Shown here piece by piece: positions 1 to 35,735 of a DNA stretch of 35,735 nt. The stretch is from a virus. Position numbers and translations under genes: made by a program. The notes under the pieces are model-generated. The model was not told the origin of the DNA. It searched no databases and was given only the letters and a program-made list of their open reading frames with translations. Where the stretch lies: the IMG/VR virus record IMGVR_UViG_3300009684_000007, positions 1 to 35,735 of that record; one strand, 5' to 3'. Position 1 is the first letter of the stretch. The number at the start of each line of letters is the position of its first letter.

Positions 1-123
1 CATGACCGGACTCGACCACCTCGCCCGACTTCAATCTGCGGAGGCCATCGCCCATGACAAGGCGATCGCCACCCTTTCACAGGAAACCCTCCTCGCCGCC
101 GCCCAAGACCTTGGCCGACGCCG
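1..123. repeat. Terminal direct repeat, left copy
   Basis: These 123 bases are identical to the last 123 bases of the window (35613-35735). The gene that starts at base 2 overlaps the stop codon of the gene ending at 35617 when the two ends are joined, so the sequence reads through as a circle of about 35,612 bp. The repeat may be an assembly overlap from a circular or circularly permuted molecule, or a genuine short terminal redundancy. The sequence alone cannot separate these. Confidence 0.95.
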
Positions 124-6800: not shown

Positions 6801-6992
6801 ATGGGATCCTCCAAAGCACCCCCGCCTCCGCCGCCTCCGCCGCCTCCAGTCTCCGCCACCGGAGCCGATCAGGCACAGGCCGCCATCGATGCAAAGAAAA
6901 GGGAGAGAGGTCGCTATGACTTTTCCAAAACCCTCCTTGCGCCCGGAAGTCTCGCCTCCATGCCGGACGGCACCAAAACCACCCTCGGATGA
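6801..6992 (+). CDS. Polyproline small protein upstream of portal (63 aa)
   Basis: Residues of about 7-16 are a run of ten prolines, followed by an Ala/Gln helix and a basic stretch (KKRERGRYDFS). The ending 'LLAPGSL...' resembles the 'tilTG' endings of small proteins that commonly precede portal genes in podoviruses. Its function is unknown, but the conserved position suggests a virion or assembly role. It starts 37 nt after GCCACCTGTTCAA copy A, and its TGA overlaps the ATG of the portal gene. GGGGAA directly before the ATG is too close to act as a normal ribosome binding site. Confidence 0.7.
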   Translation: MGSSKAPPPPPPPPPPVSATGADQAQAAIDAKKRERGRYDFSKTLLAPGSLASMPDGTKTTLG

Positions 6993-8632
6993 AGGACTCC
7001 CGCGCCGAAAAGCTCCTCCAAATGGCTGGGAAACTGACCGCCGAGCGTGCCCCCTGGGACGCTCTTTGGCAGGAACTCGCCGACGTGGTGCACCCCCGGC
7101 GCGGCCTCATCAATACGATCAGCAACACGCCGGACCGCAGCAAGCTCGCCGAGCTCTTCGACGGAACGGCCATGCGTTCCAACCAAACGCTCGCCAATGG
7201 CCAGAGCGCCCGCGTGACGCCCATGGGTGCGCGTTGGTTTGTCCTCCGCCCACCGGCCACCCTTGCCGAGAAACCCGCCGCGGTCGCCTGGTATCATCGA
7301 TGCTCCGAAATCCTCGCCGGCCAGTTTGCCTCCTCGAATTTTTACGGCATCGCCCAGCAGCACTACCTGGACCGGGGAGCCTTCGGCATCGCCGCCACGG
7401 AAGTGACCAGCGGAAAAGGCGGGCAGGGTCTCCACTTCCGTTCCTTCCCAGTCGGCACCTACTCCGTCGCCGAAAACTCCCTGGGGGAAATCGACACGAT
7501 CGTCCGGGAATACTCATGGACCCCGCGCCAGATCATCGAGGCCTTCCCCGATGGCGTGCCTGAGGCCGTCACCAAACGCGCCGCCGATCCGGACACCGCC
7601 AACACCAAGGAGAAGCTCGTCCACTTCGTCATGCCCCGTCAGGACCGGGATCCGCGCAAGGACGACAGCAAAAACAAACCGATCGCCTCCTTTCACATTC
7701 TCCGGAATGAATCTGTGATCCTTCACGAATCCGGCTTCGATGAGATGCCGGTTCCTGTCTCCCGCTGGGCGCAGTGGGGAGAATCTCCCTATGGCTGGGC
7801 TCCGAGCTACGCCGCCCTCCCGGAAGCGACCCAGGCCAACGTCCTCGAGCAGATGATGGACGTGGCCACCGAGACCGCCCTCTTCCCGCGCATCCTCTAC
7901 GGGTCCAACATGAAGGGAGACATCGACTTCCGGGCGATGGGCCTCACCTGCTACGATAGCACCATGGGCGACCCGCCAAGGGAGTGGATGACCCAAGGCC
8001 GGATCGACCTCGCAGAAGCCCGCGCCGAGCGAAAGCGGAAGGCCATCGAGGATTCCTACTTTGTGCCACTCTTCAACGCGGTTTCCCAACTTCGCTCCGA
8101 CGCCACGGCCGAGCAAGTCCGCGCCATCCTTGGCGAAAGTAGGGAACTCTTCCACCCGATCTTTTCCCAGCTATGCCGGGAATTTCTCATTCCCATCCTC
8201 CGCCGCTCCTTCGCCCTCCTCCTCCGCCAGGGAGCTTTTCCACCCCCGCCGCCAGACGTAGTGCAGCGGGACGACCTCGGAAACTACATCGCGGATCCTG
8301 GTGTCGAATTTGTGTCCGCCATGGCCCTCGCCCTCGAGCAGAGCCACCTGGCCAACCTCAACGACATCCTCCAGACCGTCATGCCAATGGCGGCCAGTGA
8401 TCCGTCCATCCTCGATCCATTCGATTGGGACCAAATCATTCCCTACCTCATGCGGACCAAGGGACAGCCCGAAAGTTTCATCCGTCCACCGGAAGCGATT
8501 AACTCCATCCGCGAAGGCCGCGCCCAAGCGCAGCAGGCCCAGCAGGCACAGGCCGCTGCCGCCACCGTGAAAGACCTTGGCGGCATCGACGCCGTCCAGA
8601 ACGCAGCGGGTGCCCTTCCCGCTCAAAACTAA
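6989..8632 (+). CDS. Portal protein (head-to-tail connector)
   Basis: The 547-residue product matches the head-to-tail connecting protein family of T7-like and BPP-1-like podoviruses (PF12236). The N-terminal 'WQELADVVHPRRG', the 'GTAMRSNQTLANGQSARVTPMG' region (split over about 50-75), 'RPPATLAEKPAAVAWY', and the segment near residues 210-290 with 'PVSRWAQWGESPYGW' are typical. The C-terminal part is a Gln/Ala-rich helix (about 510-530) like the crown or barrel region of portals. Twelve copies would form the vertex through which the terminase packages DNA. Neighbours on both sides fit. The start overlaps the preceding stop (ATGA). Confidence 0.92.
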   Translation: MKDSRAEKLLQMAGKLTAERAPWDALWQELADVVHPRRGLINTISNTPDRSKLAELFDGTAMRSNQTLANGQSARVTPMGARWFVLRPPATLAEKPAAVAWYHRCSEILAGQFASSNFYGIAQQHYLDRGAFGIAATEVTSGKGGQGLHFRSFPVGTYSVAENSLGEIDTIVREYSWTPRQIIEAFPDGVPEAVTKRAADPDTANTKEKLVHFVMPRQDRDPRKDDSKNKPIASFHILRNESVILHESGFDEMPVPVSRWAQWGESPYGWAPSYAALPEATQANVLEQMMDVATETALFPRILYGSNMKGDIDFRAMGLTCYDSTMGDPPREWMTQGRIDLAEARAERKRKAIEDSYFVPLFNAVSQLRSDATAEQVRAILGESRELFHPIFSQLCREFLIPILRRSFALLLRQGAFPPPPPDVVQRDDLGNYIADPGVEFVSAMALALEQSHLANLNDILQTVMPMAASDPSILDPFDWDQIIPYLMRTKGQPESFIRPPEAINSIREGRAQAQQAQQAQAAAATVKDLGGIDAVQNAAGALPAQN

Positions 8633-18032: not shown

Positions 18033-21000
18033 ATGGCTGACATCTCGCTTCCTTCCCCGCCGGACTACCTTCCCGACTACTCTGGCCCCGCTGCCACCAT
18101 GCCGGTCTCTCAGGACCCGGCCACCGCAGCCAATGCCGCCATCCTTGGCGATGGCCATTCAGTCGCTCAAAAACCCGCCCGCACGGATCGCCAAAACCCG
18201 GCGGATTTCTTGAGTATCCCGCCACCGGCACCGGATGCCCCGCCGTCATCCATCGACATCGCCACCGGTAGGAAGACCACCATCCCCGAGGCCACCGCCT
18301 GGGGAGCCTTTCAGACCCTGAAGGCAAACCCCAAGGTCCTCGACGAACCGCAGCCGGACGGGACCACCCTCCGCGCCAGGCTGACCGATACCGTTTCGAG
18401 CTACTACGACGAGCGGAAAGCCAACAATCAAAAGCCGTTCCCGACTTACGCCGCAGAAGCTGTGGCTGCGCGAAATGCCCACCACGAAAAGCTTTTTTCC
18501 GGACTCGATAAACTCGACGCCGCCCTCACCCCGGAACAGAAAGCCGCCCTTGACGACCGGGCAAAGCTCGCCCCCGATCCGGACGCCTACCGCGCCCGCG
18601 CCATCAACTTCCAGTATCTCCGGGACCTTGACACACCGGTGACGCAGGAAAACTACCCCATCGCCCGCAGCGCCTACGCCGTGCAGCTAGGCCTTCCCGC
18701 CGAGGCCGACGACAAGGCACTCTACAACGCCATTGGCAACCGCCAGCGCGTGGCCACCGAGACCACCAAGACCCTTTCCAAGGCCATCCAGAAGGCCATG
18801 CAGACCGTCCTCATGGGCGACGGCCGCCCGGAGATCCGGGAGCAGCAGCTCAAGGACCTCCTCGCCGCCACGCCCGACGAGCACAAGAGCTTCGTCCGCC
18901 AGCAATTCACCAACTCCTGGAAAGACGCCCGCGACCTCGCCCGCCAGGCGAAGCCCGTGGTCGACCAGATCATGCCGCTACTCCTCGAAGGAGCCAACGC
19001 CAAGGAAGGCAGCCTCCAGGACACCTTCGGCAGCCACTTCGAAAAGGCCGGAGCCATGCTACCCGCCGATCAACCCGGCGGAAACCCGATGCGCGAGGCC
19101 GTGCTGGCCCAGCTTGAGGGGAAGATGAAGGCGATCAACCCCGAGGACTACGCCGGGTTCTCCCGCTTCTACGAGGCCCTTGCCCAAGGCACTGGAAACA
19201 TTGCACGCGGCACCTTTGACATGGGAGTCGCCCTTCGCCAGTGGAGTGACGAGACCGCCAAGAAAGCCGGCATGACCATTCCCGGCACTGACACCCGGGA
19301 GAATGCCGCCGCCGCTCATGACGATGCCCGGAAAATGCGGAACCTAACCGCCGCCACCGCAGGCAGTTTCCGCCGGAAAGACGATGGATTTATCCGCAAT
19401 GGTCTCCTCTCTGCCACCGAATCCGTTCCCTACACCCTTCTCGCCTTCGAGGGTCCGGCAGGCTTTGGCCTCATGACTTCCAGTATGGGAGGCCAATCCT
19501 TCCAAGACGCCCGACAGGCCAACCCAAACGCCTCACCCGCTCGCCAGGCAGAAGCCGCTCTTGTTTCCGGAGCCCTGCAAGCCGTCCTCGAAACCGTCTT
19601 CGACCATGCCGGCCTACGAATGGCCAAGATGAAGGTCCCCGGACTTTTCGCCGCCCTCAACAAGACCGGCGTGACCAATGCCACCGGACGCGCCGCCATC
19701 ACCGGCACCGCCGCCGCCCTTGGTATCCTTGGCACGGAATACACGGAAGAATTTGCACAGCAAGGAACCGACCGCGCCCTGCAGGACATGGCGCTTTCCC
19801 TCTCCGGCATCGATCCGACGACCAACTGGAAGGGTTTCTTCCACGACTGGAATCCGCTTTCCGGTAGCCAGGTTTCCATGGACACCCTCGGAGCAGTCCT
19901 CCCCTACGCCCTCATAGGCGGAGGAGTCGCCAGCTTCCAGAACTACCGCTTTGCCAATACCCTGCAACGCTCGACTCCCAGGCTCCGCTCCCTGGGTATC
20001 CCGGAGGAGCGCGTGCAGGCCATCGCCACCGCGCCCACGCTGGAAGACGCCACCACCGAACTACGCAGCGCGTGGAGGGATGGGCTGGACCTAGCCGCCG
20101 CCACCAAACAGCGGGAAAAGCTTTCCGCCATCGCCGAGGAAACCGTCGCCTTCTACGGCCAGAGCCCCATCCAAGTGATCCAACCGGAAAACAACGACTT
20201 CACCGGCGAAACTCAATTCCAGCTCAACCTCCCGGACGCGCCCCCCCGGGTGTTCCAGACTCTCGACGAAGCCTTCGATGCCCTCCGTGACTTCCACGCC
20301 AACCAACTGGGCGATGACCTCGACACCCTAAACGATGCCACCCGTCAGGACCTGATCGACTTCATGACCGGCGAATACTCCGCCGCCGCCAACATCCGCA
20401 TCACCGATCGAAGCAAGCTCGCCCTCACCCCAGACCAAGCCGTTAAGCAAGGGATCGCAACACAACAACAGATGACCGAGCGCCTCCGCATCCACGCCAT
20501 GCAGGAAGGCGTGGACGTCGCCGACCTCGATCTTTCAACCCTACGCATCCACGCCCGCCGCTTCTCCGAGCGCATGCGGGACGGCAGCCTCCGCCAGACG
20601 GTGGAGTATTTCCAAGGAGCCGACCCCATCAACGTGGCCGAGGACATCGCGGAAACCTACTGGACTAGCGCCCTCGACGAGGGACTTCTCAAACATGACG
20701 AGATCGTCGGCTGGATCCGCCAGGCCGAGCAGGTTACCGGCAACAGCTACCTCGACCCAAGCCACGACAGCACCAGCGACCGCGCCCAGCTTCAACTTAC
20801 CGAGGCCCTTTCCGCCTTCTCCCGCGAATACCTCGCCGGGAACGTCGCCGACGAGCGCCTGCCGGAAAAGTTTCGCCGCTGGCTCCACACCCTGATCGCT
20901 TACGCCGCCCATAAATTCCGCCACGCCGCCACCCTGCTCCGGTCAAAGCCGCTCATGGATGCCGTGAAGGCGGGAAAGATCGATTCCCGCTTCGTCGCCC

Positions 21001-24000
21001 ACATCGCCGACAGCGTGGGGCTGAATCAGGCCGAGACCGATCGCCGCTTCCAAAAGGACTACCAGGCCCAGCTCGCCGCAGAGGCCATGGGAGGCGTGGA
21101 GGAAATCTCCGAAGCAGCCCGTGGCATGCTCCCTCACCCGGAAACCGCCCGCCAGCGCCAGCACCCCCTCGCCGGTGAACTCCAGCGCCTGTATGATTCC
21201 CTGAAGACTCCCACCCGGCGCCGACGCAAGGACGGCAGCACGATCGACAGCACCCAGCGTGCAAACGCTTTCTTCCTCCCCATCGGCGAATGGGAGAGCC
21301 CGGACGACGTACGCCAGAGCCTGAATGAAAAGGGCTTCGCCTTCGACACCCCCGCCGCCCTCCTCTCCGCCCTCGATGATTCCCTCAACTACAACCTGAA
21401 GAGCTACGCCACCCAGGGAGGCATGCTCGACCAGTCGTTTTCTGTGGGATCCTTCCAGACAAACGAGCAGGCCCGGCAAGCATACGAAAAAGAAATCTCC
21501 GCCCGCCTCGCAGAAGCAGGAATCCAAACTGAGTTTACGCACATCGAAATTGAACCAGGCAAGGCCAATACCGTCATCAATTACTATCGGGATGGCCAAT
21601 ATTTAGGTGAATCGATCCGCTCTATTTCAGCAAAAGAGATGAAACTGTCCACAATTGGACTTAACGGCAAGACAGGAGCACTTCGGCCCATCTACGCCGC
21701 CGAGTCACAATTTTCAAAAGACCATCACCTCACAGTCCGGAGCAGACTTTCTAATCAGTTCACCAGAGCAAAATTCAACGAATTTTACCCCAACAGCACA
21801 GAGATAAAGGGCGGGAAAACTCTCATCTGGTCCCCACCCAATATCGCCACCCAGGGAGGCATGCTCGACCAGTCGTTTTCCGTGGGGCGCACGAACGTTT
21901 TCCCGACGGCAGGAACACGATCGATCCAGACCACCGACGGCCGTACGCTTGTCGGCCCAGCCACGTTCTCGATTTCCGCCTACCACGGCACCCCGCACAA
22001 GGTCGACCGCTTCAGCCTCGACAGGATCGGGACCGGGGAAGGCGCGCAGGCCTATGGGTGGGGCCTGTATTTTGCCGGAAATCCGAATGTCGCCAAGGCC
22101 TACGCTAGAGCTTATGCAAGAGGAGAAATTTCCACAGCCGAGGACGCCGCAAGACTGGCGCTTTCTTTAGAACAATCTCCAGCATCCGCCATCGAAGCAT
22201 TGAAGGCACTGGACATCCCGGGCCTGAAGGATTCCACGTTGGTAGACGATGCCGTTCGTCTTGTGGAATTAGGAGCCGTCTCAACTGGCAACCTCTACAC
22301 CGTCACCCTCGACGTGAACGATGAGGACCTGCTGGACTGGGACAAACCGTTTTCCGAGCAGCCCGAGTCTCTCCGAAAAGCATTTGCTGCCATGACCGAG
22401 ATTCGCGTGAGACCTTATGGACCTAATCCATACGGGGGAGAAGAATTTGCCGACGTGGAAATCAAATTGCCTGGCGGACAATGGTCTGCTGAGGGAGCTT
22501 ATCCACTGGAAAAAGCCAAGAAGCGCCTTGAGGATAAGCAATCGATCATTGACGATCTTCGATTCTCAGGGGAATCGATTTATGACATCATCATGCGGAC
22601 CAAACGGGACGCCGCCGAAGTTTCCCAATATCTCAACGATCTCGGCGTTCCAGGCATTCGCTACCTCGACGGCAATTCCCGCGCCCAAGGCCAAGGCTCG
22701 TCCAACTACGTCCTCTTCGACGAGTCCAAGATCCAGATCACCGAGGAGAATGGAAAGCCGGTCACCATGGCAGACCAGTCGTTTTCAATTGGCCCGGTGA
22801 TGCTCCCACCCACCACAAAAAAGAGCCGGACCCTTTCGGATCCGGCTCTTGCTCCCCACGTTGGTGGGGAAAGCGGCTTAATGAGCTTTGATACTCGGGC
22901 CATCCCCACGTTGGTGGGGAACGAGGAAGACGCTACATCCTTCTCCTTGGGTCGCGCAAGGGAAAATTTCTTCGCTGCTCAGAATCGTTTGCTCACCGCC
23001 AAGGAAGCACTGACAAAAGAGGAAAAAGACGCCTCCACGGCTCGTTACCAATGGGAAATTCAGCATGGGAAGCAAACCGTCGACCAGTATCCCCGATCAC
23101 CCAAGGGGCCGCTCTCCAACGTTTTGATCGCTGGAAACAAATACAACCGGCCTCGCACAAACTTTGGTGATCCTGATCTTGAGGCTTGGCGCAAGCACTT
23201 GAGCTTGCCAGAGGAATCAACACCGCAGGAAGTCGTCAACGCTGTAACCCAAAAAGTCGGACGCGAGATTTTTGGATTTGCCGGATCATCAGGAGATAGA
23301 CGGTCGATCCGACTGGTTTCTCAAAGCGGACAACTGATTGCCGAAATCCCCGGAACGTCCTACCAACCATTTCCGGAACCGGAGTCATTGATTGCCGCCC
23401 GCGAAGCATTGGCCCAAGCGGAGGCCGATCTTTACCTTGCTGAGGAAGAATTTGACCCGGAAACCGATGCGCGTTTAGCCATTGCCGACCGTCTGCGCGA
23501 AAAGGAACTGGCCAAGAAAGCCGCCATGTTCGCCGCGTTGCTGGATGCCCGGGATGATGAAACAAGAAACGCTGCCAGCTACTTTGTGGCAAAGGTCTGG
23601 GCGGCCTATGGCTCCCATGACAAGGTTTTCCAGTATGGAAAAACCGAATCGTCGGATGCCGACGACATCGCCGCTGCAGTCTCGACACCCGGCAAGCTCG
23701 TCACGGCTACCGAAAGCGGCGACAGCGTCCGCTTTTCAGGACCGTCTGGCCACTTGACGATCCACGACGCTGACACCGACCAACCTCACATCGAAGCCCT
23801 TGCCGCAGGTAGCAAAGGGAAAAAAGCTGGAGGTGGATCACAACTCTACGCCGCTGCCCTCGACTGGATCCACAACAACGGGAAGCGGATCAAGGATGAT
23901 CCGGGCGGACTGACCGCCATCAATCACGTTCGGCGCACTTCCAATTTCCTCGCCAGTGCCATCCGCTGGGGAACGACAAAGCACCTCATGCCGCACAAAT

Positions 24001-27000
24001 CCCAAGCCGTTGGGAAATGGACAAAGAACGACGTGCTTAACACCGCGCTGCTGGCAACCAAGGAACTGGACAACGTCCTCAAACTCATCCCCTCCGCGCG
24101 GGCCTTGCGTTTCGACTTTCAGTCTGGTAGCTTCTTCGCAGGTGAAAGACTCCTTACAGACGCCGACCTCGAAGGAGAAATCTCCAACCACAATGCCGGA
24201 GACCAAGGCGTCGGAATTTCAACGCTTCAAAGAGCGATCATCACGGCATCCGCGATACAAGAATTTCAGCGCGGAACAGCTTCGAGTGCTTTGGAATCGG
24301 CAGAATCCGGGCTCCCGGATTCCCTGACAGGTGTCAGTTACTCCCTCTCCGCCTCCGCCATCGGCGACTTGGAAAAACTCATTGCCCAGAAGCTGACCGA
24401 AGGCCCAGCCGAACGCGCCCAGATCCTCCAGACCCTCCGCAACCGCCTCGCCGGAGTCCTTCAGCGGCAGGAGGACATCACCAACGGAGTCCACCCACTC
24501 CTGAAGCGCGGCAGCATGGACCCGGTGCAGACCGACCGCCTCCGCCAGCGCGAGCTTTCCGCGCAGATCCACGCGATCATTTCCGCCTTCCCGCCGGAAG
24601 TCCGGGGAAAGGTCAACTTCGACAGCACCACCCTCCTCGATGCCGATGGCCCGCGCAGCGTGGTCAACGCGATGAAGAGCGTGATCAATCGCCTCGACGA
24701 AGCCCTCGAACCCTATCTGCAGGAGCAATACCTCGACGCCCTCGCCAAGCTGATCGACCTCGGCAGCCCGGTCCGCAAGGCCGGAGAGACCAGCAAGAGC
24801 AAGCTGACCCCGGAAACCCAGCGCACCTTTGACCTGGCCGTCGAAGCCACGCGCCTGACCCCGACCGAACTCTCCGCCCGCCTGATCGGCACCGAGGCCA
24901 CAATCGCCGAACTCTCCAACAATCCGGATGCCGACGGCAAGGAACTGGTCCGCCAGACGCTGACCCTGAACTTTCTCGAAACCTTCGGAGCCCTCCACAC
25001 CCGCAGCGCCGCGGAACTGGAACACGCGCACCAGCAGCTTCTCAGCATCTACTCCAGTGGCCGCATGACCCGCCGCATCCTCGACGATGCCCAGCGCGAG
25101 GAACGCGCCGCCTGGCGCAAGGAGATTCTGGAAAGCCTCGGCCTACCCTACGGAGCCAACGACCACCAGCACACCACCGGCACCTCCAAGAAAGGCCTGG
25201 CCGCCGCCGGGGAAATGCTCCAGTCCCTCCGCCTTGGCATGTCGTCCTTCCACCAGGTCATGGAGTGGATCCTGCCAAAAAGCACCACCGCCCGCATGAT
25301 GCAGGCCGAGGAACGGAAAGCCGCCACCGCCTCCACCCGCCTGAAGCTGGAAGCGCACGACCGCTTCAACGAGTTCTTTGCCACGCGCATGGGACTGAAG
25401 ACCCGCCGCCAGCGCAACGCCGTCCTCGCCCGCCTCTCCGAGCGCAAGGACACCGACATCCGCCTCCTCGAAGGCATCCGCAGCAAGTCGGAAAAGCTGA
25501 CCATCGAGCAGGCCCAGCGTGTCCTCCGCGGGCAGATGAACACCGGCTGGGAAAACGACCGCATCGCCATGGAATCGCTCCGCCAGGCCTACGCGGAGTA
25601 TCAGCTACTCCCGAAAAAGAACCGGGACGCCCGCGAATTCATCCGCTTCGACCGTGTCACGCAGCGCGGCAATGAGTCGCCACTCGTCGCCAGCCAACTC
25701 GAACTCCTCAACTACCACCTGACCGCCCAGCAGGCCGAATACCTCCCGGCCCTCGACAAGTGGGGATTCACCGAGGACGTGCTGGCCGCGATCAAGGACA
25801 AGCTCGAACCGGAAACCCTCGACCTCGCCGAATTCCTCGCCACCGAATACGCCGACGGCTACCACCGCCTCAATCCGGTTCACCGCGCCATCACCGGCAT
25901 GGACATGCCGCAAATCCGGAACTACTCGCCCGGTCGCTTCGAGAACGCCAAGGGCAGCGCCAACGACGCGCTCGACGCCTTCGGCTCCACCCTCGCCAGC
26001 CCGAACGCCCTCGCCGCTGGATTCACCAAGAACCGCAAGGCCCACATGGCACGGCCGCAGAAGGTTTCCGCCCTGGCCAGCTACTGGGGACACGTCGCCA
26101 CCACCTCCCACTTCATCGCCTACGCCGAGCTTTGCCGGGATATGGGAGCCGCGTTCAAGACTCCCGAGATCCGCCGCGCCATCGAGGCCCGCTTCGGAAA
26201 GAAGATCGCCGGCACCTTCTCCCAATGGCTCGACGCCATCGCCCTCGACGGACAGTTTCAAGCCACCGTCTCCCTCGCCTCCGCCGAGATCGGCCAGCGT
26301 GCCCTCGCAGGCCAAGCCGCCATCGGACTGGCCTACAACCTTGGCGTCCTCCTCAAGCAGGCCAGCGCAGGCCTTGGATTCCTCATGGAAATGCCCCTGA
26401 AGGATGCCGCCAAGGGTCTCATGCTGTCCCTGAGCAACCCGCAGGCCCTCACCAAACTCTGGAACACTGAGACCATTCGCCAACGCATCGACTCCGGATT
26501 CTCCCCGGAAGACCGACAGCTTCTCACCGTCGCCGATTCCAAGCCGTCCCTGATCCTCGACCTCCTCGCCGTCGGTCGACTACCGATTGCCTGGACCGAT
26601 GCCGCCATGACCACCATTTCCGGCAGCGTGGCCTACCAGTTCCACCGGAACCAAGCACTCAAGCAAGGACTCAACGAGCAGCAGGCCGAGGAGATAGGAC
26701 TCGCTGCCATGGACCGGGTCATTTTCCGCACCGCCCAGCCAAACCGCACCGCGGAGCGCAGCCTCGACGAGATCACGACCGCGCACCCGTTCATGCGGAC
26801 GCTGTTCCAGTTCAAGAGCGACCCGCGCCAGAAGTTCGCCCTGGCCACCGAGGCCATCGCCAAGGCCATCCGGGGAGACATCACCAAGGGGGAAGCCGCC
26901 AAGAAGTTCCTCGTCACCTGGGCGCTCTACGGACTCATGGCACAAGTCGCCGCCGACGTGTGGAAAGGCATCTCGCGCGACGATGACGACAACGACTATA

Positions 27001-27614
27001 AGAACTGGCAGCCCAAGGACTACCTCGCCGCCATGATTGCCGGCCCCATCGCCGGAGTCACCTACCTGGGCAGCGCCGCCGATTTCCTGATCCACAAGCT
27101 GATCACCGGGAAAGCCTTCACCAACTCCGCCACCCCCATCGAAGGAGCCCTCGCCGCCGGACTCGCCCAGATTTCCAAGGCATCCAGCCACCCGGAGAAA
27201 ATCGACTTCAACGACATCGTTTCCCTCACCCGTTCCCTGGGACTCCTCGCCACCACGATCGACCCCCGCGCCGCCATCGTCCCCGTCGCCCTGAAGGCAG
27301 CCCGAGACACCTACGGCATCGCCGAGAACGCCGGCGACGTCTTCTTCGGAGAATCCCCCGCCGAGCAGATGCACAGCATCATTCGTGAAGCCAAGGCCGC
27401 CGACAAGAAAGCCAAGGAAACCGCCCCGCCCAAGGCTCTGACCGATCGCCAGCTCGCCCGCAAGAAAGTCCTCGACGAACTCAACCCACAGGAGCGCAGC
27501 CTGAAAAAACTCCCGGAAGCCATCCGAAAGGATGCGATTGAAAAGATCCTTCAGACCCTCCCGGAAAACGAGCGGGAATCCTACAAGCTCCGCCTCCAGA
27601 ACGCCGGACTTTGA
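18033..27614 (+). CDS. Giant polyvalent internal virion protein (3,193 aa) with ADP-ribosyltransferase-like cargo
   Basis: The position and the membrane-prone, helical ends fit the large ejected core protein of podoviruses (T7 gp16 role). Residues of about 450-650 contain hydrophobic Ala/Gly-rich segments ('ALVSGALQAVLETVF', 'LPYALIGGGVASF'). About 2750-3020 has more ('LAYNLGVLLKQASAGLGFLM', 'FLVTWALYGLMAQVAADVW', 'AAMIAGPIAGVTYLG'). The C-terminus is charged. The middle is cargo. Residues about 1315-1570 match the ART-PolyVal ADP-ribosyltransferase type: 'AYHGTPHKVDRF' with H1318-G1319, 'GEGAQAYGWGLYF' around 1341-1347, 'GVPGIRYLDGNSR' and 'NYVLFDESKIQI'. About 1930-1990 ('GGGSQLYAAALDWIHNNGK', 'RRTSNFLASAIRWGTTKHL') resembles a domain that recurs in polyvalent proteins. 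Linkers DQSFSVG (twice), DQSFSIG, SFSLG and SYSLS separate modules. The cargo DNA is visibly less GC-rich. No lytic transglycosylase motif is seen. Confidence 0.85.
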   Translation: MADISLPSPPDYLPDYSGPAATMPVSQDPATAANAAILGDGHSVAQKPARTDRQNPADFLSIPPPAPDAPPSSIDIATGRKTTIPEATAWGAFQTLKANPKVLDEPQPDGTTLRARLTDTVSSYYDERKANNQKPFPTYAAEAVAARNAHHEKLFSGLDKLDAALTPEQKAALDDRAKLAPDPDAYRARAINFQYLRDLDTPVTQENYPIARSAYAVQLGLPAEADDKALYNAIGNRQRVATETTKTLSKAIQKAMQTVLMGDGRPEIREQQLKDLLAATPDEHKSFVRQQFTNSWKDARDLARQAKPVVDQIMPLLLEGANAKEGSLQDTFGSHFEKAGAMLPADQPGGNPMREAVLAQLEGKMKAINPEDYAGFSRFYEALAQGTGNIARGTFDMGVALRQWSDETAKKAGMTIPGTDTRENAAAAHDDARKMRNLTAATAGSFRRKDDGFIRNGLLSATESVPYTLLAFEGPAGFGLMTSSMGGQSFQDARQANPNASPARQAEAALVSGALQAVLETVFDHAGLRMAKMKVPGLFAALNKTGVTNATGRAAITGTAAALGILGTEYTEEFAQQGTDRALQDMALSLSGIDPTTNWKGFFHDWNPLSGSQVSMDTLGAVLPYALIGGGVASFQNYRFANTLQRSTPRLRSLGIPEERVQAIATAPTLEDATTELRSAWRDGLDLAAATKQREKLSAIAEETVAFYGQSPIQVIQPENNDFTGETQFQLNLPDAPPRVFQTLDEAFDALRDFHANQLGDDLDTLNDATRQDLIDFMTGEYSAAANIRITDRSKLALTPDQAVKQGIATQQQMTERLRIHAMQEGVDVADLDLSTLRIHARRFSERMRDGSLRQTVEYFQGADPINVAEDIAETYWTSALDEGLLKHDEIVGWIRQAEQVTGNSYLDPSHDSTSDRAQLQLTEALSAFSREYLAGNVADERLPEKFRRWLHTLIAYAAHKFRHAATLLRSKPLMDAVKAGKIDSRFVAHIADSVGLNQAETDRRFQKDYQAQLAAEAMGGVEEISEAARGMLPHPETARQRQHPLAGELQRLYDSLKTPTRRRRKDGSTIDSTQRANAFFLPIGEWESPDDVRQSLNEKGFAFDTPAALLSALDDSLNYNLKSYATQGGMLDQSFSVGSFQTNEQARQAYEKEISARLAEAGIQTEFTHIEIEPGKANTVINYYRDGQYLGESIRSISAKEMKLSTIGLNGKTGALRPIYAAESQFSKDHHLTVRSRLSNQFTRAKFNEFYPNSTEIKGGKTLIWSPPNIATQGGMLDQSFSVGRTNVFPTAGTRSIQTTDGRTLVGPATFSISAYHGTPHKVDRFSLDRIGTGEGAQAYGWGLYFAGNPNVAKAYARAYARGEISTAEDAARLALSLEQSPASAIEALKALDIPGLKDSTLVDDAVRLVELGAVSTGNLYTVTLDVNDEDLLDWDKPFSEQPESLRKAFAAMTEIRVRPYGPNPYGGEEFADVEIKLPGGQWSAEGAYPLEKAKKRLEDKQSIIDDLRFSGESIYDIIMRTKRDAAEVSQYLNDLGVPGIRYLDGNSRAQGQGSSNYVLFDESKIQITEENGKPVTMADQSFSIGPVMLPPTTKKSRTLSDPALAPHVGGESGLMSFDTRAIPTLVGNEEDATSFSLGRARENFFAAQNRLLTAKEALTKEEKDASTARYQWEIQHGKQTVDQYPRSPKGPLSNVLIAGNKYNRPRTNFGDPDLEAWRKHLSLPEESTPQEVVNAVTQKVGREIFGFAGSSGDRRSIRLVSQSGQLIAEIPGTSYQPFPEPESLIAAREALAQAEADLYLAEEEFDPETDARLAIADRLREKELAKKAAMFAALLDARDDETRNAASYFVAKVWAAYGSHDKVFQYGKTESSDADDIAAAVSTPGKLVTATESGDSVRFSGPSGHLTIHDADTDQPHIEALAAGSKGKKAGGGSQLYAAALDWIHNNGKRIKDDPGGLTAINHVRRTSNFLASAIRWGTTKHLMPHKSQAVGKWTKNDVLNTALLATKELDNVLKLIPSARALRFDFQSGSFFAGERLLTDADLEGEISNHNAGDQGVGISTLQRAIITASAIQEFQRGTASSALESAESGLPDSLTGVSYSLSASAIGDLEKLIAQKLTEGPAERAQILQTLRNRLAGVLQRQEDITNGVHPLLKRGSMDPVQTDRLRQRELSAQIHAIISAFPPEVRGKVNFDSTTLLDADGPRSVVNAMKSVINRLDEALEPYLQEQYLDALAKLIDLGSPVRKAGETSKSKLTPETQRTFDLAVEATRLTPTELSARLIGTEATIAELSNNPDADGKELVRQTLTLNFLETFGALHTRSAAELEHAHQQLLSIYSSGRMTRRILDDAQREERAAWRKEILESLGLPYGANDHQHTTGTSKKGLAAAGEMLQSLRLGMSSFHQVMEWILPKSTTARMMQAEERKAATASTRLKLEAHDRFNEFFATRMGLKTRRQRNAVLARLSERKDTDIRLLEGIRSKSEKLTIEQAQRVLRGQMNTGWENDRIAMESLRQAYAEYQLLPKKNRDAREFIRFDRVTQRGNESPLVASQLELLNYHLTAQQAEYLPALDKWGFTEDVLAAIKDKLEPETLDLAEFLATEYADGYHRLNPVHRAITGMDMPQIRNYSPGRFENAKGSANDALDAFGSTLASPNALAAGFTKNRKAHMARPQKVSALASYWGHVATTSHFIAYAELCRDMGAAFKTPEIRRAIEARFGKKIAGTFSQWLDAIALDGQFQATVSLASAEIGQRALAGQAAIGLAYNLGVLLKQASAGLGFLMEMPLKDAAKGLMLSLSNPQALTKLWNTETIRQRIDSGFSPEDRQLLTVADSKPSLILDLLAVGRLPIAWTDAAMTTISGSVAYQFHRNQALKQGLNEQQAEEIGLAAMDRVIFRTAQPNRTAERSLDEITTAHPFMRTLFQFKSDPRQKFALATEAIAKAIRGDITKGEAAKKFLVTWALYGLMAQVAADVWKGISRDDDDNDYKNWQPKDYLAAMIAGPIAGVTYLGSAADFLIHKLITGKAFTNSATPIEGALAAGLAQISKASSHPEKIDFNDIVSLTRSLGLLATTIDPRAAIVPVALKAARDTYGIAENAGDVFFGESPAEQMHSIIREAKAADKKAKETAPPKALTDRQLARKKVLDELNPQERSLKKLPEAIRKDAIEKILQTLPENERESYKLRLQNAGL
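21407..21448 (+). repeat. 42-nt in-frame direct repeat, copy 1
   Basis: This copy encodes residues of about 1126-1139 of the giant protein (ATQGGMLDQSFSVG) and matches 21845-21886 at 41 of 42 positions. The offset is 438 nt, exactly 146 codons, so recombination between copies would delete or duplicate the intervening module without a frameshift. Confidence 0.95.
21845..21886 (+). repeat. 42-nt in-frame direct repeat, copy 2
   Basis: This is the second copy, directly before the ADP-ribosyltransferase-like domain. A shorter third match, the 14-mer GACCAGTCGTTTTC, occurs at 22773-22786 just after that domain and encodes DQSFS, so the domain is bracketed by the same linker. Confidence 0.95.
22817..22850 (-). 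terminator. Intragenic leftward terminator-like hairpin
   Basis: AAGAGCCGGA (22821-22830) pairs perfectly with TCCGGCTCTT (22841-22850), and the run AAAAAA at 22817-22822 reads as TTTTTT after the hairpin on the minus strand. This is the form of a Rho-independent terminator for leftward transcription, yet it lies inside the giant rightward gene where no leftward gene is recognised. It probably marks a captured non-coding segment. Confidence 0.6.
22853..22921 (+). repeat. Pair of identical 19-nt palindromic repeats
   Basis: The 19-mer TCCCCACGTTGGTGGGGAA occurs at 22853-22871 and at 22903-22921. Each can form a 7-bp stem (TCCCCAC / GTGGGGA) with a GTTG loop. The 31 bp between them is unrelated. 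The repeats are read through in two different frames (HVGGE versus TLVGN), so their conservation is at DNA or RNA level, not protein level. Confidence 0.85.
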
Positions 27615-30878: not shown

Positions 30879-30967
30879 AGACCATCCTCCAGTGGCTATG
30901 GATCTGCCTCTACCTGCTATGGGACCTGATCCACTGCCCTGAGCACGACGACCTTCCCCCACCATGA
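30875..30967 (+). CDS. Very short hydrophobic peptide gene (30 aa)
   Basis: A GTG at 30875 overlaps the TGA of the lipoprotein gene (GTGA), and the frame ends at TGA 30965-30967, overlapping the ATG of the amidase gene (ATGA). The 30-residue peptide starts MKT and has one Trp/Leu-rich membrane segment (about residues 4-20, ILQWLWICLYLLWDLI), then a short acidic, Pro-rich tail. It exactly fills the 85-bp gap with coupled starts on both sides, the main reason to believe it. The role is unknown; it could be a holin-associated or pinholin-like peptide. Confidence 0.45.
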   Translation: MKTILQWLWICLYLLWDLIHCPEHDDLPPP

Positions 30968-31518
30968 TCGCCATCTGCATCGGCCACTCCCGTTCCGGCG
31001 ACTCCGGAGCCGTCTCAGTCGGCCACGTCACCGAGCACACCTTCAACACCGACATCGGCCAGATCCTTGAATCACTTCTCGAAGACCTCCCAATCGAAGT
31101 CATCACCCGCTACGAAGGCAACGGCTACACCGCCGCTCAGAAATGGCTGGGAGCTTCCCTAAAGGCCAAGGGTGCCACCCTCGCCCTCGAGCTCCACTTC
31201 AACAGCGCCGACACCCCCAAGGCCCAAGGCTTCGAATACCTCCACCACGAAGACAGCCACCGCGGCGCCGCCCTCGCCGCCGCCATGCTCGCCGCCCACC
31301 GTGGCCGCTTCGCCGGCAACGTCTCCCGAGGAGTCTCGCCCATCGCCCCTGGTGGCCGTGGCTTCCAGTTTCTCAAAGAAACTCCCTGCCCCGCCGTGAT
31401 CTGCGAGCCCTTCTTCGGTTCCAACCCCGACGAGTGGGCACTCTACAACAGCGAAGCCGGACGCCAAGCCCTCGCCGAATCCTACGCCGCCGGAATCCGC
31501 TCCTTCCTTTCCCTCTGA
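30964..31518 (+). CDS. Endolysin: zinc-dependent N-acetylmuramoyl-L-alanine amidase (Amidase_3)
   Basis: The enzyme cuts the bond between N-acetylmuramic acid and L-alanine in peptidoglycan to lyse the host. The Amidase_3 zinc ligands are all visible: His8 in 'ICIGHSRSGD', Glu24 in 'VTEHTFN' and His78 in 'LELHFNSA', with Glu148 in 'VICEPFFGSN' as the catalytic acid. The whole 184-residue protein is the catalytic domain. There is no signal peptide or separate cell-wall-binding domain, so export depends on a holin. It lies among small membrane and lipoprotein genes, a typical lysis cassette. The start overlaps the preceding 30-codon gene. Confidence 0.88.
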   Translation: MIAICIGHSRSGDSGAVSVGHVTEHTFNTDIGQILESLLEDLPIEVITRYEGNGYTAAQKWLGASLKAKGATLALELHFNSADTPKAQGFEYLHHEDSHRGAALAAAMLAAHRGRFAGNVSRGVSPIAPGGRGFQFLKETPCPAVICEPFFGSNPDEWALYNSEAGRQALAESYAAGIRSFLSL

Positions 31519-31818: not shown

Positions 31819-32415
31819 ATGCCTGACATCCTCGCCGACCTCCCGATCCTTATCCCTTGTCTGGTCCGAAAAGAGTTCACCCAGAACTTCCAAAGTGGAC
31901 AGGGGGAATTCCTCTCCGCCCACATCCTCGGCATCCGCTGCCAGGAAGGCCACTCCCTGCAATTCCAAGTCCGCTTCGAAGACGCCACCCACGGCGGAGC
32001 CATGTTCTGCCTACCCATCCAGGCCCTTTGCTGGAAACCCTGCGGCCAACCGCCCGCTGACCTCACCCAGCCCTGGGACACGTTCAGCGAACACTTTGCC
32101 ATTCACGCCTTCGCTCTCCTCAAAAACTCCCGCGCCTGGCTCCTCAATCACCATTCCACAGAATTCCCCAACCGTCTCGAAAGTCGATACCTCTTCACCG
32201 TCGACTTCTCAGGAAATGCCCTGGCCGATTGCTTCGAGCAACACAAGCAACTCCACGTCCTCCAAGTCGCCGCCGGATGGTTCGCCGCCGTACCCAACAA
32301 TCGAACACTTTCCGACGACAGCGCCTTCTCCAAACTCCCCACCGAGCTTCCCCGCTTCGAATCCCTCGCCGCCGACTTCTGCGGAGAATGCACCTTCCAC
32401 CTCCCCATTCCCTGA
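31819..32415 (+). CDS. Hypothetical protein after the lysis genes (198 aa)
   Basis: Function not recognised. The sequence is a mixed alpha/beta soluble protein with several Cys and His residues ('CLPIQALCWKPCG', 'LLNHHSTEF', 'FCGECTFHLPIP'), including a C-terminal CGEC pair, but these do not form an obvious zinc-finger pattern. No signal peptide or membrane segment is seen. It starts 2 nt after the preceding stop and is the last rightward gene before attP. This is a common place for lysogenic-conversion (moron) genes, but its base composition is like the late genes and there is no separate promoter in view. Confidence 0.5.
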   Translation: MPDILADLPILIPCLVRKEFTQNFQSGQGEFLSAHILGIRCQEGHSLQFQVRFEDATHGGAMFCLPIQALCWKPCGQPPADLTQPWDTFSEHFAIHAFALLKNSRAWLLNHHSTEFPNRLESRYLFTVDFSGNALADCFEQHKQLHVLQVAAGWFAAVPNNRTLSDDSAFSKLPTELPRFESLAADFCGECTFHLPIP

Positions 32416-32505: not shown

Positions 32506-32533
32506 TGGTGCGCGCTGCAGGGTTCGAATCTGC
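32506..32533 (-). other. Probable attP core: 3' end of a tRNA gene
   Basis: Read on the minus strand, this stretch has exact tRNA 3'-end geometry: T-stem GCAGA, 7-nt loop TTCGAAC, T-stem CCTGC, a 7-nt acceptor strand AGCGCGC, discriminator A, then CCA. Four of five T-stem pairs form; the pair next to the loop is A-C where tRNAs have G-C. No anticodon arm or 5' half is present. It lies 86 bp from the integrase stop. Many tyrosine integrases use a tRNA 3' end and carry a copy in attP so that the gene is restored on integration. Confidence 0.6.
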
Positions 32534-32618
32534 AAATGTTCGTTTGAACTTGTCCGCTTGAACGCTAGTTAGTGGACATTGCCCTTCATTCTACAAGGAT
32601 CCGTCTTGATGAAGCTTC
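32534..32618. other. Spacer between attP core and integrase
   Basis: These 85 bases contain no gene. A small inverted repeat, GTTC-GTTT-GAAC (32539-32550), lies just beside the tRNA-like core and could be part of the integrase core-binding region. No clear terminator for the leftward integrase gene is visible here. Confidence 0.35.
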
Positions 32619-33851
32619 TTAGTTTCCTTTACCGAAACTCCCTTTCATCGGATCATTTCGGATCATGGAGGGACAAAGGCTAAACCATTCTTTGCCCAAC
32701 TCCTCCGGGCGGGGATTGTGATAGTGACGGTTCAGCATGGCGACCGAGGTTCCCATTTCCTCCGCCACCTGGGGAAGGTTCCGCAGCACCGCATTCCGGA
32801 AAGACCCGTAGGAGTGCCGCAAAACGTCTTGCGGCCACTTCCCATCAAAGAGCACCCGGCCAAGTCTCGCCGTTTCTTCCCACCGCGTTGGATTCCTCGG
32901 GCACACTGGGCCGATCGTGTCTTCCGTGATTCCGGCCCAGCGGAGCCATTCCATACAGGCCTCCGACATCGGGACATGACGCGGCAGGCCGACCTTCGAG
33001 ACTTCCGACGGGACATTGATCGTCTTGAATTTCCAATCGATTTCCTGAGCATGAAGACCCCGCTTGCCTTTCTTCTTGCTGGTGGGCATCGGCGCAATCT
33101 CCTCCGGGCGGAGACCCGCAAAGGCACCCAACACGACCCAAGGGCGCCACTCGATGCCGACCTCGCGCAGGATCGCCAGCAACTCAGTAGATTCCAGCAC
33201 GCGCCGCTCGCCGTGACTTGTCGCCACCAGAGGCAAGCGTTCCGCCACCGTGACCGGATCGTAACCGACCAAGCCCTCGCGCTGCAGCCAGTTCCAGATC
33301 GTCACCAGCACCGAGCGCAAGCTTTGCCGAGTCTTCGGCGACTTGTCGCCGACATCCGCATCCCACCACGCCCGGAGGTCGTCCAGGTGGACGTCCACCA
33401 CCGCCTGCCCTTTGAAATGGGAACCGACCCGCTTGGCGATGGCCTTCACCTGGCGCACCCATGGAGTCACCTCCCCGGCGGTCGACTCCTGCCACTCGCA
33501 AAAACGATCCAGTGCGCCGCTGATTTCCCCGCTCTTCGACCGAGCTTCCAGAAACGCCAACAGCGCGGCCTCCTCGACCTCTGGGCATTTCCGGTGGACT
33601 TCCTCCAGAAACCGCCGCCGCGCAGGCCGCAGGGTGCTCCAGACCAATCCTTCCGCCTGTTCGTTGAGAATGTCCTGGGCGGCCACGTCGGCCGCGTCCT
33701 TGGTCTTCCGGGTGACGTACCGCCACCGCTCGCCATCCAGCCAGGCAAAACGCCAGCAATTCCGACCCGTCGCCGGGTGCTTCCAACGATACACCGTCAA
33801 CGAGGAAGTTCCTCGACTGACCCGAAAACTTGATTTAGTAGACTTTTTCAC
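32619..33851 (-). CDS. int: Tyrosine recombinase integrase
   Basis: The integrase catalyses site-specific insertion and excision at attP/attB. The N-terminal part (about 1-60) looks like an arm-binding fold, and about 100-210 is a SAM-like core-binding domain. The catalytic domain shows Arg248 in 'FAGLRPEEI', Lys286 in 'EVSKVGLPRH', Arg345-His346 in 'DVLRHSYGS', and the nucleophile Tyr377 in 'LNRHYHNP'. The usual His of the HxxR box is Asp342 here, and the following H/W position is Thr or Ser in 'MGTS', a variant I associate with Verrucomicrobiota/Planctomycetota integrases. The start is GTG 33851. It faces away from the neighbouring rightward gene, with 24 bp between starts, and attP lies just beyond its 3' end. 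Confidence 0.92.
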   Translation of the reverse strand: MKKSTKSSFRVSRGTSSLTVYRWKHPATGRNCWRFAWLDGERWRYVTRKTKDAADVAAQDILNEQAEGLVWSTLRPARRRFLEEVHRKCPEVEEAALLAFLEARSKSGEISGALDRFCEWQESTAGEVTPWVRQVKAIAKRVGSHFKGQAVVDVHLDDLRAWWDADVGDKSPKTRQSLRSVLVTIWNWLQREGLVGYDPVTVAERLPLVATSHGERRVLESTELLAILREVGIEWRPWVVLGAFAGLRPEEIAPMPTSKKKGKRGLHAQEIDWKFKTINVPSEVSKVGLPRHVPMSEACMEWLRWAGITEDTIGPVCPRNPTRWEETARLGRVLFDGKWPQDVLRHSYGSFRNAVLRNLPQVAEEMGTSVAMLNRHYHNPRPEELGKEWFSLCPSMIRNDPMKGSFGKGN

Positions 33852-35353: not shown

Positions 35354-35617
35354 ATGCAGCTTTCTCCAGAAGATCGAGACGCCGTCCGCCAGCTTGCCGC
35401 CGAGCGGATCGTCTCCGAGCTCCGCGCCGAACTGGGCGGATGCTTTGCCGGCCTGATCGTCCTGCCGCTCAACGTCGTGGGCCCGATGATTGGACTCTCC
35501 GGGAAGCAGGCCGGTCGCCGCCTCCCCATCACTTCGATGGGTCCCCGTTCCAATGGCGTGACCCTCCAGAACCTCCAGACGCACCTCGCCAACAACACCG
35601 CACGGAAAACTGCATGA
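35354..35617 (+). CDS. Excisionase-like / MerR-type HTH protein candidate (87 aa)
   Basis: After an N-terminal helix (about 5-28), residues of about 42-80 ('MIGLSGKQAGRRLPITSMGP' and 'VTLQNLQTHLANNT') show the layout of excisionase-type winged helix proteins: a helix-turn-helix, a Leu-Pro-rich turn, a short basic wing, and a final helix ('dLe.hLa'). A small protein of this type early in a temperate phage operon could be the directionality factor for the integrase, although it is not next to int. Its TGA overlaps the ATG at the circle join (35614 = 2). Confidence 0.45.
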   Translation: MQLSPEDRDAVRQLAAERIVSELRAELGGCFAGLIVLPLNVVGPMIGLSGKQAGRRLPITSMGPRSNGVTLQNLQTHLANNTARKTA

Positions 35618-35735
35618 CCGGACTCGACCACCTCGCCCGACTTCAATCTGCGGAGGCCATCGCCCATGACAAGGCGATCGCCACCCTTTCACAGGAAACC
35701 CTCCTCGCCGCCGCCCAAGACCTTGGCCGACGCCG
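35613..35735. repeat. Terminal direct repeat, right copy
   Basis: This is identical to bases 1-123. It contains the first 122 bases of the 66-residue gene that is complete at 2-202 and so runs off the end of the window here. It should be counted once when the circle is closed. Confidence 0.95.

Follow-up and report, generated by a model that had tools for sequence, protein, structure and literature searches.

The window, that is, the whole 35,735-bp stretch of the virus record analysed here, carries the sequence TGGTGCGCGCTGCAGGGTTCGAATCTGC at 32506-32533 of its plus strand, as read directly. On the minus strand (32533-32506) this is the 3' third of a tRNA in exact spacing, made up of the T-stem strand GCAGA (32533-32529), the T-loop TTCGAAC (32528-32522), the T-stem strand CCTGC (32521-32517), the acceptor strand AGCGCGC (32516-32510), the discriminator A (32509) and CCA (32508-32506), in agreement with the first-pass annotation of this DNA, which had described the same T-arm, acceptor strand, discriminator and CCA on that strand. 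The T-stem holds one mismatch, four of its five pairs being formed and A53-C61 being the mismatched pair. No complete tRNA was found in the window (0 genes in ARAGORN, 0 matches in Rfam), and a search of viral_contigs with the exact 25-mer of the site, phage base A53 included, gave 0 matches. Two imperfect 13-bp direct repeats, TGTTCGTTTGAAC and TGTCCGCTTGAAC, with starts 14 bp apart, lie at 32537-32563, in the interval separating the tRNA end from the integrase gene, and are possibly further protein sites.

A tyrosine-type integrase of 410 aa (32619-33851, minus strand; PHROG phrog_1 integrase, E 3.9e-15) is encoded next to this element and reads toward it, its ORF stopping 85 bp from the tRNA 3' end, where 86 bp had been given earlier. 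The integrase gave no match in Pfam at E 1e-3 and none in PDB at E 1. In an alignment of six integrases, R248, K286, R345 and Y377 are invariant, which we take by motif assignment to be the catalytic R, K, R and Y of tyrosine recombinases; D342 and T368, also invariant in all six aligned integrases of the clade, stand at positions that tyrosine recombinases usually fill with His. Among phage records, the integrase matched those of two Akkermansia phages at about 25% identity. A single integrase query retrieved no relative from viral_contigs, and the alignment of six as query retrieved 23 viral loci with relatives (L206 and L208 from one contig). The integrase relatives of the window share 40-69% identity with it.

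On the other side of the site lie an amidase gene (30964-31518) and a gene for a PHROG phrog_3704 protein (31819-32415). The record begins with a direct terminal repeat of 123 bp (1-123, plus strand), of which an exact copy stands at 35613-35735, and it is read as a circular or terminally redundant phage form. Given this exact repeat and the phage genes on both sides, the site is taken to be an attP, not a chromosomal junction. An open frame of 3193 codons (18033-27614, plus strand) occupies more than a quarter of the genome.

tRNA tails and tandem motifs beside related integrases

A 20-nt tRNA tail with at most 3 mismatches was detected in 26 of 31 integrase-downstream stretches, 16 of them exact and the window's among these, whereas the control set, 1670 stretches of 460 bp sampled from the window and the viral loci, yielded a single one; four of the exact tails (L142, L147, L148 and L149) are intact tRNAs that are themselves in the tail library. 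The five misses comprise L199 and L210, which carry the T-arm of a tRNA absent from the library, as well as L215, L150 and L151. For relatives of at least 40% identity over at least 130 residues with downstream DNA, a tRNA 3' end was present in 18/18, 16 of them by library match and the other two (L199 and L210) by T-arm pattern with 5/5 stem pairs. Shorter matches at 40% or more gave a tail in one of three (L164); the two without it, L161 and L133, are N-terminal matches of 42-46% identity. In the whole cellular set, distant relatives included, a tail was found in 17 of 44 loci, which divide into 7 of the 8 that reach 40% identity across 130 residues or more (the remaining one, L146, ends at the contig end) and 10/36 others; 12 of these 44 loci are included in the 31-locus count. 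The counts leave out L201, L205, L206 and L213, which have no DNA downstream of the integrase gene, and L217 was dropped as a 29-residue match; L152 has 52 bp left before its contig ends, and L207/L209 and L211/L212 are identical integrases, each pair counted twice. A tRNA tail is thus the rule in the close clade but does not accompany all distant integrases.

Tandem WTCCGA motifs were also found around the core. Two ATCCGA copies 10 bp apart (32663-32658 and 32653-32648, minus strand) lie within the 3' end of the integrase gene as a probable P-arm, and two TTCCGA copies 11 bp apart (32479-32474 and 32468-32463, minus strand) lie beyond the tRNA end as a probable P'-arm. The integrase-side pair, exactly 10 bp apart, is present in 10 of 16 att loci (the window, L195, L196, L197, L198, L199, L202, L203, L210 and L122) and the far-side pair, exactly 11 bp apart, in 7 of 16 (the window, L196, L197, L199, L202, L203 and L204), the background of WTCCGA being 0.65 per 600 bp in the att loci and the motif having been picked after seeing the sequences. 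On the far side, L195, L198, L200 and L210 have a single close motif, the pair of L122 is 8 bp apart, and L207 and L208 have no WTCCGA motif. No tandem pair occurs at the attR of L039, and L006 has three motifs 11 bp apart. Measured from T54, the first base of the T-loop, the far pair stands at +49/+60 in the window, at +49/+60 in the attL of the prophage G098 and at +48/+59 in that of the prophage G103, both described below. Arm-type repeats flank the core on both sides, as in a bivalent (lambda-type) attP, and the WTCCGA pairs are probably the arm sites of the integrase. The integrases of HE-PICI elements (PMC10111431) are similar in having a doubled tandem motif, with two copies positioned precisely about the crossover, and many targets within one clade, but they are directed to prophage late genes with another motif, whereas the clade of the window keeps to tRNA T-arms.

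That the window represents a prophage in its integrated state, with the element as attR next to host flank, is extremely improbable. The attR of relatives do look alike, with an integrase, about 80-140 bp and an A53 fragment; against this, phage genes lie on both sides of the element (the amidase at 30964-31518 and the integrase), a P'-type motif pair, which is an attL feature, directly follows the fragment, and the record carries the exact terminal repeat.

The host tRNA gene

A search of bacterial and archaeal genomes, one per species, with the tail pattern TTCGAANCCTGCAGCGCGCA returned at least 118 loci. Of the 121 occurrences listed in 118 genome loci, 97 fall within intact genes, of which 95 are labelled Verrucomicrobiota and two have no phylum label; when all loci except the window's own are taken, two viral contigs included, 98 of 123 listed occurrences are in intact genes. 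The other 25 of the 123 listed (for example L021, L036 and L039) are not intact genes, and some of these are truncated at a contig edge or are probably chance hits in other phyla. ARAGORN, run on 34 loci, assigned tRNA-Val(CAC) in 27 and no tRNA in 7, and the 5' acceptor strand of the host tRNA-Val genes is GCGCGCT or GCGTGCT. By sequence match, the captured tail (32506-32533, minus strand) is the 3' end of a Verrucomicrobiota tRNA-Val(CAC). The first-pass annotation had predicted a host tRNA gene with the 5' acceptor strand GCGCGCT and proposed a genome search with the 3' end, and it is this tRNA-Val(CAC), with either 5' strand, that the search recovered. Judged by eye, one of the two loci without a phylum label (L046) appears to have another valine anticodon. 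A viral contig (L002, 9416-9490) carries a tRNA-Val fragment extending back to the anticodon stem.

Base 60 divides the 98 intact genes listed into 59 with C, 37 with A and 2 with T, and the phage has C. The C60 genome loci listed belong to Verrucomicrobiales (36), Chthoniobacterales/Spartobacteria/Terrimicrobiales (7) and unplaced Verrucomicrobiia (1), with 14 lacking a finer label; those with A60 belong to Limisphaerales/Pedosphaerales (21), Verrucomicrobiales (6) and unplaced Verrucomicrobiia (2), with 8 lacking a finer label. As identity in the exchanged stretch normally matters, the C60 of the phage makes a host in the C60 group (Verrucomicrobiales/Chthoniobacterales) more likely than one in Pedosphaerales/Limisphaerales. 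We infer a host in the phylum Verrucomicrobiota, probably of the order Verrucomicrobiales or one nearby, with the reservation that the labels of metagenome bins are sometimes wrong. The direct handle on the host expected in the first-pass annotation therefore extends to the phylum, with base 60 leaning to Verrucomicrobiales/Chthoniobacterales, and names no species. The integration site links an uncultivated virus to a host phylum and provides att sequences and an integrase for Verrucomicrobiota, which can be tested. Judged by the listed tail occurrences outside intact genes, the tRNA-Val(CAC) gene looks like an integration hotspot in Verrucomicrobiota.

Integrated relatives and the crossover point

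The first-pass annotation had also suggested a search for prophages bounded by the site. Neither this phage nor any relative close to it at whole-genome level was found in integrated form among the sequences searched, and the junction evidence comes from the relatives L039, G098 and G103. L039 has an intact tRNA-Val and, about 3.3 kb away, a remnant; the two enclose an integrase that is 45% identical to the window's and whose reading frame is interrupted by one internal stop, for which reason the element may be dead. L028 was considered as the empty site of L039 and rejected, the match being limited to the tRNA and about 70 bp. The integrase fragment of L006, truncated where its contig stops, shares 55% identity with that of the window, and comparison of L006 with an empty site in a sister genome (L110) gave 76/80 identical positions after the core and 21/100 before it. 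Among relatives, prophages bounded by the sequence are therefore represented by L039 and L006. L085/L122 was rejected as an attR, since its fragment stands head-on to the integrase gene, the contig has no intact tRNA and two further window genes were matched; it would rather be the attP of an unintegrated phage contig.

Complete intervals were seen at other tRNA genes. In G098, the distance from tRNA-Leu(TAG) to its fragment is 42,727 bp, T54 to T54, and that from tRNA-Asn to its fragment in G103 is 40,878 bp, T54 to T54. Comparison of ten large frames from each interval with PHROGs identified a terminase large subunit and tail proteins in G098, and a terminase large subunit, portal, tape measure, tail fibre and replicative helicase in G103; by this gene content, both intervals are prophages, and they belong to the integrase clade of the window. 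The G103 interval also holds a complete tRNA-Met gene (L312, 13031-13105). Two Leu(AAG) tails are separated by 58,449 bp in G096, and ARAGORN called no tRNA gene in the stretches examined, the last of which ends near the second tail.

Relatives of the window's virion connector protein (6989-8632, plus strand) were found in 71 of the 260 genomes searched, which represent one family. The genomes with the nearest connectors (56-59%; G158, G133, G145 and G108) fall outside the group of 25 (of 260) in which the integrase was matched at E 1e-20, and in parts of the connector regions of G158, G133 and G145 and in the short G108 contig no match to the window integrase and no tRNA was found.

These data also bear on whether the tRNA fragment could be a passive scar of imprecise excision or transduction, with the true attP elsewhere. 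The element is a fragment rather than a gene, and tRNA fragments do persist in genomes, as such a scar would require. Against it, the core is flanked by tandem motifs also present in relatives, the tail matches exactly from T54 onward, the arrangement is the same as at the attL and attR of relatives, and a tRNA end accompanies all 18 close relatives with downstream DNA, which makes a scar very improbable. The preferred reading is that the feature is the attP core of a temperate phage and that the neighbouring integrase carries out recombination between this core and the T-arm of the host tRNA-Val(CAC) gene, to which we assign a probability of roughly 0.94. It is based on the sequence match, the tandem motifs and the attL, attR and attB structure of relatives.

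The intact genes listed have G at position 53 in 98 of 98 cases, and the phage has A (32529), which forms the integrase-side edge of host identity, just where the A-C mismatch had been proposed to mark it. A53 was also observed in the tRNA-Val remnants beside the related integrases of L006 and L039, and in the prophage of G103 the fragment of tRNA-Asn carries T53, versus G53 in the intact tRNA. G53 is present in 22 of 26 tails beside integrases, so that A53 is not a rule in the family. Unbroken identity to the host gene upstream of T54 amounts to 0 bases, with GCAG shared beyond the mismatch, and the identity of attP to the host gene begins at the T-arm, not at the anticodon loop. Since base 53 is phage-specific in the cases of the window, L006, L039 and G103, the crossover in these cases lies 3' of position 53, and comparison of attL and attR in L039 and G103 places it between position 53 and the CCA end.

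Within this interval the T-loop is most likely the place of crossover. A T-stem dyad, AGG/CCT, is centred on the T-loop, and CCT at positions 61-63 is found in 16 of 17 T-loop-type attP (the 18 relatives and the window, minus L204 and L145; the exception is L196), compared with 11 of 43 isoacceptors in the tail library. Counted by target, CCT is enriched in 5/6 versus these 11/43 (hypergeometric P 0.0025, in a test chosen after seeing the data), which suggests that the palindromic AGG/CCT half-sites may be what the integrase reads. A crossover in the T/acceptor junction or the acceptor region would fit the attL/attR comparison, which narrows it only to position 53 through the CCA end, but is unlikely in view of the dyad centre, the CCT frequencies and the mutations in mycobacteriophage Ms6, which favour the T-loop (PMC1762012).

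Integration at tRNA T-loops is a known kind of site, to which the phage of the window adds a member. In Ms6, the attP core is identical to the 3' end of a tRNA-Ala, and strands are likely exchanged in its 7-bp T-loop; the two phages are alike in the tRNA-3'-end core and T-loop exchange and differ in tRNA and host (PMC1762012). Ms6 reportedly needs identity over a 26-base core (PMC1762012), while in the window the identity to the host gene is interrupted at position 53, immediately before the T-loop. By analogy with Ms6 (PMC1762012), the overlap would be the exact 7 bp of the T-loop (32522-32528), the phage sequence from T54 to CCA being that of the host gene. Crossovers at Islander tRNA islands are placed in the anticodon loop, the T-loop or the T/acceptor junction, and in the T-loop/junction class an intact tRNA and a displaced 3' fragment likewise mark the element (PMC4383910).

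We propose that the integrase would bind the tandem WTCCGA arm sites flanking the core and the AGG/CCT half-sites of the T-stem, with strand exchange in or just after the T-loop. The host would retain the 5' two thirds of its tRNA with G53, and with it the G53-C61 pair, and the phage would provide T54 to CCA, giving an intact tRNA gene at attL, and the displaced host 3' end would be left behind the integrase as attR with the phage base A53. For this phage, we infer both the activity and the roles of the WTCCGA and AGG/CCT motifs. To carry a tRNA 3' end, so that the host gene stays whole after insertion, is a well-known strategy of phages.

Target and direction in the integrase clade

The targets of the clade include Val(CAC), Leu(TAG), Asn, Arg(CCG), Met(CAT) and Ser(GGA), with Leu(AAG) in the pair L204/L145, and the tail is on the integrase strand in some relatives and head-on in others. 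On the integrase tree, at least 6 direction changes and at least 14 tRNA changes were counted (raw counts, the former including the distant rows L211, L212, L214 and L216, whose tails have 2-3 mismatches), with several of the deeper forks weak and some rows long or partial. Three sister pairs differ in direction, namely window/L195 (support 100/100), L200/L210 (100/99) and L142/L144 (99/96). Both members of L142/L144 are at tRNA-Leu(TAG) in opposite directions, the direction of L142 being taken from an intact tRNA whose 3' end the integrase faces, with the far end of the element off the contig. L195 is the nearest relative of the window, with 69% identity in the integrase and 73% in the connector; its tail is head-on and Leu(TAG)-like with 2 mismatches, and thus differs from the window's in both target and direction. 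In steps of 40 bp, identity between the window and L195 is close to 0.5 between -120 and +40 relative to the core and mostly 0.5-0.9 beyond these limits, one 40-bp stretch (+80 to +120) being non-aligning.

The opposite directions of sister integrases in window/L195, L200/L210 and L142/L144 support the proposal, held here at even odds, that the clade is polarity-agnostic: the near-palindromic T-arm (AGG-TTCGA..-CCT) would let a fixed arm array take the core either way, so that phages could swap tRNA target and prophage direction by exchanging no more than the roughly 160-bp cassette that the arms enclose. The switching of target and polarity among close relatives is notable and unusually free; a limited search of the open-access literature found no report of direction switching within one tRNA-integrase clade. 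Compared with the Islander islands (PMC4383910), the clade is set apart by sister integrases that vary in target tRNA and polarity. Close integrases whose tandem motifs are conserved and whose tRNA cores vary in identity and direction make the clade a set of natural experiments, which bears on how integrases change target and what sets integration polarity.

Archaeal suicidal integrase genes are split on integration, unlike the integrase gene of the window, which stays whole beside attP. The suicidal integrases of Thermococcales are alike in that one family switches among many tRNA genes (PMC8371274).

The more distant L204/L145 extend Leu(AAG) identity at least 20 bases upstream of T54, and the attP of L207 shows, by eye, Tyr identity back beyond the T-arm; these three resemble sites of the anticodon-loop sublocation.
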